The notes beneath the pieces are model-generated. The model had not been told where the DNA came from, did not search any database, and saw only the letters and a program-made list of their open reading frames with translations. A stretch of 64,000 nt of DNA from Halobacillus massiliensis (GTDB taxonomy: Bacteria > Bacillota > Bacilli > Bacillales > Halobacillaceae): assembly GCF_900166625.1 (NCBI RefSeq), contig NZ_LT800499.1:3305676-3369675 (forward strand). Direction: 5' to 3'. Position numbers and translations under genes: made by a program. Below, piece after piece: positions 50,169 to 50,551 of this stretch (its first letter is position 1; every line of letters starts with the position of its first letter).

Positions 50169-50197
50169 TTGACAATAGGCAAAATATATAGTATATT
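50169..50197 (+). promoter_or_regulatory. Near-consensus SigmaA promoter of a candidate RNA gene
   Basis: TTGACA (50169-50174), 17-nt spacer, TATATT (50192-50197). Transcription would start near 50204. Confidence 0.75.
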
Positions 50198-50257
50198 ATT
50201 TCATTAGTACCTTCGCTGTAAAGAAGGTAACTTCGGAACAATGAAAGAGTGATGTGA

Positions 50258-50377
50258 ATGAGACTGGCTTCTGCTACGTTTTATCACAACTTAATCACAC
50301 TGGATCAGCTACGGAGCTGTAAGGATGCAATAGAGGTAGGGATTGCGTCGTTTAAGTTGATAAAAACTACCATGTAG
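50258..50377 (+). CDS. Possible 39-aa peptide inside the candidate RNA
   Basis: ATG 50258 to TAG 50375-50377. The product starts MRLASATFYHNLITLDQL and ends FKLIKTTM. A weak GAGTGAT element lies a few nt upstream. It overlaps the central folded domain exactly, so either the RNA is coding or the frame is incidental. No family recognised. Confidence 0.3.
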   Translation: MRLASATFYHNLITLDQLRSCKDAIEVGIASFKLIKTTM

Positions 50378-50464
50378 AATTTATCCGCGGCAAGACAGGG
50401 ATGGAACTAACCTGTTAGATAAACGAAACACAAAAAAATAAATTCATTATCCGAACAACAACGA

Positions 50465-50494
50465 GCGAGTCAGACTTCTGTCTGACTCGCTTTT
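50465..50494 (+). terminator. Terminator of the candidate RNA
   Basis: Perfect 11-bp stem GCGAGTCAGAC / GTCTGACTCGC, TTCT loop, then T4. Confidence 0.85.
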
Positions 50495-50551
50495 CGAATT
50501 TAAAAAGGCTTATTTTTAAATAACAAAAAAGCGAAAGGACTCACCTTCCGC

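Follow-up and report, generated by a model that had tools for sequence, protein, structure and literature searches.

The region at 50204-50497 of the 64,000-nucleotide stretch of Halobacillus massiliensis DNA that we analyzed (the window) almost certainly holds a homologue of the Bacillus subtilis sRNA bsrC, encoded on the plus strand, which is the strand opposite to the one on which the public model of this family matches. A promoter and a terminator-like hairpin would bound an RNA of about 290 nt, and its three-way-junction core (helices P1, P2, and P3) would display purine-rich loops of nearly constant sequence on two of its arms, namely GGA on P2 and AGAGGUAGGG on P3. The best explanation of the locus as a whole, to which we give an even chance, is that this bsrC homologue acts in trans and that its loops bind a conserved partner.

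A sequence-only reading of this region had proposed a structured RNA standing alone between yhfP and ywbE, with its own promoter and terminator, and our analysis recovered each of these elements. The upstream neighbor belongs to TIGR02823 (YhdH, acrylyl-CoA reductase family; yhfP type) and the downstream neighbor to the YwbE family. A consensus scan found the sigma-A-type promoter TTGACA-17-TATATT on the plus strand at 50169-50197, with 11 of 12 consensus matches and a spacer of 17. The terminator-like hairpin followed by TTTT (50464-50494, plus strand, read from the sequence) proved to be one pair longer than the perfect 11-bp stem first described, with 12 perfect pairs (50464-50475 with 50480-50491) around a TTCT loop and the plus-strand 3' sequence TTTTCGAATTT. 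The consensus scan calls the 50464-50491 hairpin terminator-like on the minus strand only, because the plus-strand T-run is short, and a second terminator scan covering 114 homologous loci also missed the window's plus-strand hairpin (locus L001). With its ends inferred from the promoter and the hairpin, the predicted RNA spans 50204-50497 on the plus strand. Its interior of about 290 nt does fold as had been suggested: the folding energy of 50200-50500 is -90.7 kcal/mol, compared to -63.4 ± 5.1 kcal/mol for shuffled sequences (z of -5.4; 0 of 100 shuffles as low).

The same reading had also considered the RNA undescribed, and here the Rfam check that it proposed gave a different answer. In a search against Rfam release 15, the only gathering-level match in the whole window was to RF01410 (BsrC; gathering score of 38 bits), whose model positions 1 to 87 aligned to 50275-50361 on the minus strand with 67.8 bits and an E-value of 1.1e-9; the plus strand of the window matched no Rfam family at gathering score. 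The 87-position model therefore spans the central domain of the window RNA, but it lies antisense to that RNA, and its structure consists of one hairpin, built around the P2 complement, and lacks P1 and P3. The original bsrC report is said to be that of Saito et al. in 2009. A covariance model that we built from the plus strand of this core (R1) matched the genome of B. subtilis 168 (G466) at 474413-474509 on the plus strand with 71.8 bits, at the ydaG-ydaH locus of the reported sRNA bsrC, where ydaG (a 140-codon PPOX-like gene) lies upstream on the same strand. These matches indicate that the window region is a homologue of bsrC and, by this sequence comparison, not undescribed. RF01410 and R1 took opposite strands in all seven sources in which they were compared (the window, L150, L151, L155, L156, L159, and L162), and RF01410 matches the strand opposite to that of R1 in both B. 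subtilis 168 copies. The RF01410 model thus appears to be the reverse complement of the window RNA core, and this strand comparison suggests that annotation pipelines based on RF01410 are likely to misplace the gene on the wrong strand.

We examined the question of strand across homologous loci. The RF01410 profile matched 126 of 150 genomes (host included), giving 137 matches in total, with a single match in the host genome. We used 114 of these matches as loci, the 23 that were omitted all coming from genomes of the window's own family, and the 114 loci yielded 111 distinct cores, all of which were aligned. A G-U pair becomes an A-C mismatch on the reverse strand and vice versa, so the balance of the two identifies the folding strand. 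In P2 and P3 together, the plus strand of the 111-core alignment contained 178 G-U cells and 2 A-C cells; the signal in P1 was weaker, with 104 G-U and 44 A-C cells alongside 196 other mismatches. Transcription signals showed the same polarity. We scored promoter-like sites by their matches out of 12, with small bonuses for a spacer of 17 and for TG, and counted sites scoring at least 10 within 260 nt upstream. Such sites were present at 66 of 114 loci, compared to 6 of 114 in the reverse (Rfam) orientation, and in 63 of the 66 the promoter started 80 to 170 nt before the core. Strong terminators within 300 nt downstream were found at 37 loci versus 4 in the reverse orientation, and both signals together at 22 versus 1.

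It could be argued that the Rfam orientation is nevertheless correct, such that the functional RNA is made from the minus strand and the plus-strand product is an antisense transcript or an artefact. The minus-strand RF01410 match would fit this alternative, as would the hairpin at 50464-50491 being called terminator-like on the minus strand only, though it lies upstream of any minus-strand RNA. On that strand, however, the 178 G-U cells of P2 and P3 would turn into A-C mismatches while only 2 A-C cells would become G-U, the transcription signals are those of the sparse reverse orientation (promoter-like sites at 6 and terminators at 4 of the 114 loci), and strand-specific tiling arrays of B. 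subtilis are described as joining the bsrC segment to the upstream gene (PMC2784878). We regard a functional minus-strand RNA as scarcely probable at all. The RNA very probably has the sequence of the plus strand, and the proposal of a structured, independently transcribed plus-strand RNA is supported by the fold, by covariation, and by the polarity of promoters and terminators.

Read in the plus-strand orientation, the core approximates CTTATTCACACTGG-P2-TAAGG-P3-TTTAAG, and the alignment fits a three-way junction made up of P1 (50286-50293 pairing with 50353-50360 in the window), P2 with a two-pair extension (hairpin at 50305-50320, with an apical loop ending in GGA at 50313-50315), and P3 with eight pairs (50324-50349, loop AGAGGUAGGG at 50332-50341). 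Two-sided changes occurred in 22 of the 24 core pairs among the 111 homologues. Paired cells amounted to 88.4% across the 111 cores, a share that fell to 76.9% for shuffled sequences and to 28-47% for slid pairing partners, and the covariation score was 0.417, versus 0.200 in shuffles and 0.056-0.132 for slid versions; the structure was derived in part from these same 111 sequences, which favors it over the slid versions. P3 was the most regular element, with 98.3% of its cells paired and two-sided changes in seven of its eight pairs. The outer three pairs of P1 were poorly conserved (77, 64, and 47 of the 111 sequences unpaired), probably in part because rows with insertions or deletions are out of register.

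P1 is the inner part of a longer stem, 50279-50294/50352-50365, to which the sequence-only reading had drawn attention. This stem can form, and the compensatory changes that the reading had named as support are present in its inner pairs. P1 is, however, absent from the minimum-energy fold of the window RNA, where its pair probability is about 0.002. In the full-length fold, P2 and P3 form, with pair probabilities of mostly 0.75-0.99, alongside a 5' hairpin at 50208-50229 that was predicted by the minimum-energy fold only and a predicted hairpin of the 3' domain at 50394-50416. Standard pairs are available in the window for 22 of the 24 pairs of the family structure, and forcing that structure on the window RNA costs 7.2 kcal/mol (-83.5 versus -90.7 kcal/mol). 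In the minimum-energy fold, an upstream stretch captures part of the P1 5' arm (near 50283-50293). States with and without P1 might alternate in the window RNA, as far as these modeled folds can suggest. Outside P1, a candidate helix P0 could pair TTCTGC (50269-50274) with GTAGAA (50374-50379). In a swap test over 58 loci, the mean longest helix was 6.72 for own pairs and 5.94 for swapped ones, with the best of 200 swaps reaching 6.34, and P0 thus has modest sequence support as an outer helix.

The distribution of conserved bases within this structure is uneven. The GGA of the P2 loop was kept in 109 of 111 cores, and the P3 loop was spelled AGAGGTAGGG in 91 and AGAGGCAGGG in 12, so that the two spellings AGAGG(U/C)AGGG accounted for 103 of the 111. 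Majority-base frequencies across the cores were 0.98 for the P3 loop and at least 0.99 for GGA and for the UGG that precedes P2, compared to 0.64 for P1, 0.80 for the P2 stem, and 0.82 for the P3 stem. What varies among homologues is therefore the flanking open reading frames (ORFs), the arms, and the stems, and what stays constant is the P2-loop GGA, the UGG before P2, and the P3 loop. On this sequence evidence, invariant loops amid varying stems are the pattern of a putative recognition module, which may serve as a scaffold or a decoy. The window carries a long form of the RNA, with a TGGC(A/G)TTCT-like stretch upstream of the core and a CCGCGGC box downstream (50385-50391 in the window); 64 of the 114 loci had CCGCG or TCGCGG no more than 110 nt past the core. 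By eye, the GGUAG of the P3 loop could pair with CUACC at 50367-50371 in the window and its near relatives, and we set this pairing aside after finding several long forms that have no CUACC. Pairing between the P3 loop and the 3' end of 16S rRNA would cover about five bases.

R1 matched 153 of 299 genomes sampled across the class Bacilli and 10 of 299 sampled across the phylum, and all 10 of the latter were Bacilli (labeled as own, same order, or same class). Carriers spanned at least 59 family labels and included every genome of two genus groups, the 44 of the group containing B. subtilis 168 and the 7 of a second one. Most listed carriers have one copy and the maximum is four (G384); three or four core copies were seen in G384, G401, G289, G309, G321, and G339. 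A search with an exact sequence pattern returned 7 records from Paenibacillus and Salipaludibacillus species, and both of the records checked were R1 matches. When R1 was applied to the 24 relatives negative with the Rfam model, 20 stayed negative and 4 were found to carry the RNA, two of them weakly (25.1 and 24.7 bits). Four genomes of genus g6, within the window's family and of smaller size (G015, G018, G021, and G024), had neither an RF01410 nor an R1 match, an apparent lineage-specific loss.

A subset of loci has a distinctive setting. At 11 of the 114 loci (L002-L010, L012, and L013), as well as in B. subtilis 168, a core copy lies downstream of the CarD-like gene ydeB and shares its strand, and within genus group g28 this copy was seen only in G141 among three sampled genomes. 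We had considered loci of the L002 type as a possible mobile element and rejected the idea, since they are the ydeB-linked copy. None of the 11 has a promoter scoring at least 10 within 260 nt, and the ydeB-linked copy may be a 3'-UTR-derived RNA. In B. subtilis 168, this second copy lies between cspC and ydeB (R1 match at 559884-559980 on the minus strand, 88.3 bits; L151, 1585-1681 minus) and differs from the window RNA in its position, downstream of ydeB in the same orientation and convergent with cspC; BSGatlas records it as an extra Rfam bsrC match (PMC8208703). The csp-like ORF of B. subtilis is at 559264-559465. For 19 of the 114 loci, the sequence fetched around the RNA included csp-like ORFs, located on one side of it or the other (e.g., L019, L020, L021, L025, L046, L058, L063, and L085), and the Rfam cspA thermoregulator model matched in L151 and L155.

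Such linkages raise the potential that the RNA is instead a cis-acting leader or 3' element of a neighboring gene, or a small mRNA, as the copies downstream of ydeB (11 of 114 loci and B. subtilis 168) and the csp-like ORFs near 19 of 114 loci would suggest. Against this, the flanking ORF clusters of the 114 loci differ between lineages, which argues for trans action, and high-scoring promoters (66 loci), or promoters together with terminators (22 loci), accompany many of the cores. The coding side of this alternative, which includes an earlier suggestion of a dual-function RNA, fares no better. A 39-codon frame in the window (50258-50377, plus strand) is shifted relative to that of its relatives, and we rejected a coding role. 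A 21-codon frame is open in 13 of 18 near relatives (window included), its start codon is missing from L039, L111, and L112, and an AUG at the base of P3 is present in only 76 of 111 cores. In the window, a one-base shift disrupts this short frame, which reads MRLAFCYV..LNHTGSASEL or a near variant; the frame overlaps conserved parts of the RNA and looks incidental. We consider a cis-element or mRNA very unlikely and think it likely that the locus makes a structured RNA acting in trans.

Published data from B. subtilis bear on both the transcript and its possible partners. The ydaG-ydaH copy resembles the window RNA in having a homologous core, an intergenic position, and a hairpin and T-run downstream; it differs in its length (about 380 nt, as read from the sequence), its neighbors, and the absence of a CCGCGGC box. 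By eye, the sequence TGTTATTAT (an extended -10 type) lies upstream of an expected start near 474267, and a GC-rich hairpin and, after it, a run of seven T are seen near 474649. The consensus scan omits the TGTTATTAT promoter, reports another weak site within the RNA, and finds the terminator hairpin on both strands. In the minimum-energy fold of this copy, the core is closed by a 10-bp helix, GAAAGUAAAC/GUUUACUUUC, and the whole RNA has a z of -2.4, with 1 of 100 shuffles as low. A co-immunoprecipitation study with Hfq lists a peak named bsrC at 474265-474410, between ydaG and ydaH, in its Table 1 (PMC3574147). The peak begins at the expected transcription start of the TGTTATTAT promoter and ends three bases before the core; strand information was lost in library preparation, as that study states (PMC3574147). 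As noted above, the strand-specific arrays join the bsrC segment with the upstream gene. One report, citing earlier work, describes bsrC as a vegetative-phase transcript in B. subtilis, and its own dRNA-seq of Bacillus amyloliquefaciens FZB42 did not detect a BsrC homologue, which its authors attribute to growth phase (PMC4634765). In Paenibacillus riograndensis, a 322-nt transcript from RNA-seq was annotated as BsrC (PMC5670726).

The Hfq data invite the hypothesis that BsrC is a base-pairing sRNA, which would use its exposed AGAGGUAGGG loop to bind CU-rich mRNA segments, aided by Hfq in some species. The exposure and near invariance of the P3 loop would also suit a pairing seed, the RPKM ratio with Hfq at the bsrC region was 53.6 in B. 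subtilis (Table 1 of PMC3574147), and 56 of 59 carriers tested have an Hfq match. An Hfq match is also present in the window's own genome, and the published peak adjoins the core (PMC3574147). Three of the 59 carriers, however, have no Hfq match, and we therefore rejected Hfq as an obligate or general partner. We also counted the loop complement CCCTACCTCTNT outside the RNA locus in four genomes and found no excess over its reversed control: it occurred 1, 2, 0, and 0 times in G000, G061, G466, and G207, compared to 4, 2, 0, and 5 times for the control, in a count that takes in perfect complements in one context only, and so just part of the loop contexts, and is blind to imperfect pairing. 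Finally, the hairpin that bears the loop covaries throughout the alignment. Seeds for pairing are rarely preserved within covarying hairpins across a whole class, and for this reason we rate a protein partner slightly above RNA-RNA pairing. Base pairing as the mode of action is possible but rather unlikely, and a protein-binding rather than a base-pairing mode falls a little short of an even chance.

Among proteins, CsrA would be a candidate, with BsrC sequestering it through GGA loops in the manner of CsrB or RsmY. The P2-loop GGA (109 of 111 cores) fits this idea, and the P3 loop and other hairpins contain more AGG/GGA runs, but seven of the eight genomes that lack a CsrA match (among 150) keep the RNA, five by RF01410 (G004, G036, G076, G094, and G107) and two by the plus-strand model (G064 and G140). 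The eighth, G043, in which the RNA was not matched, is an assembly of about 1000 contigs. We therefore rejected a CsrA sponge, which is highly improbable. A strict link to sporulation was likewise rejected, since Spo0A_C matches are missing from no fewer than 8 of the 153 class-level carriers (G054, G153, G223, G236, G246, and G256 were negative; G379 and G395 are inferred from their not being among the listed positives).

We are left with a proposal in which the plus-strand RNA, bounded by its promoter and terminator-like hairpin, would act in trans, with the core offering both loops to a conserved cellular partner. That partner would most likely be an RNA-binding protein, which the RNA scaffolds or sequesters, and the variable 5' and 3' arms could provide stability and, in some species, an Hfq site. 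Weighing against this proposal are the absence of P1 from the window's minimum-energy fold, the weaker strand signal in P1, and the lack of high-scoring promoters at the ydeB-linked copies. Our computations show the strand, the covarying P2/P3 fold, the spread over Bacilli, and the standalone position. More tentatively, and at rather less than an even chance, BsrC may be a structured RNA spread across the class Bacilli that functions in a ribonucleoprotein, together with a conserved putative protein partner, and that has perhaps been overlooked because the public model is antisense. In the open-access literature, as far as its available text goes, we found no account of the function, consensus fold, or strand problem of bsrC; the original report, which is behind a subscription, may print the correct strand. 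A probable strand, a fold backed by covariation, and a map of the spread make BsrC testable, by providing loops to mutate, species that lack the RNA, and probes. As a working analogy only, it resembles 6S, CsrB-type, and OLE/raiA-type RNAs in being a structured RNA that would bind a conserved protein.
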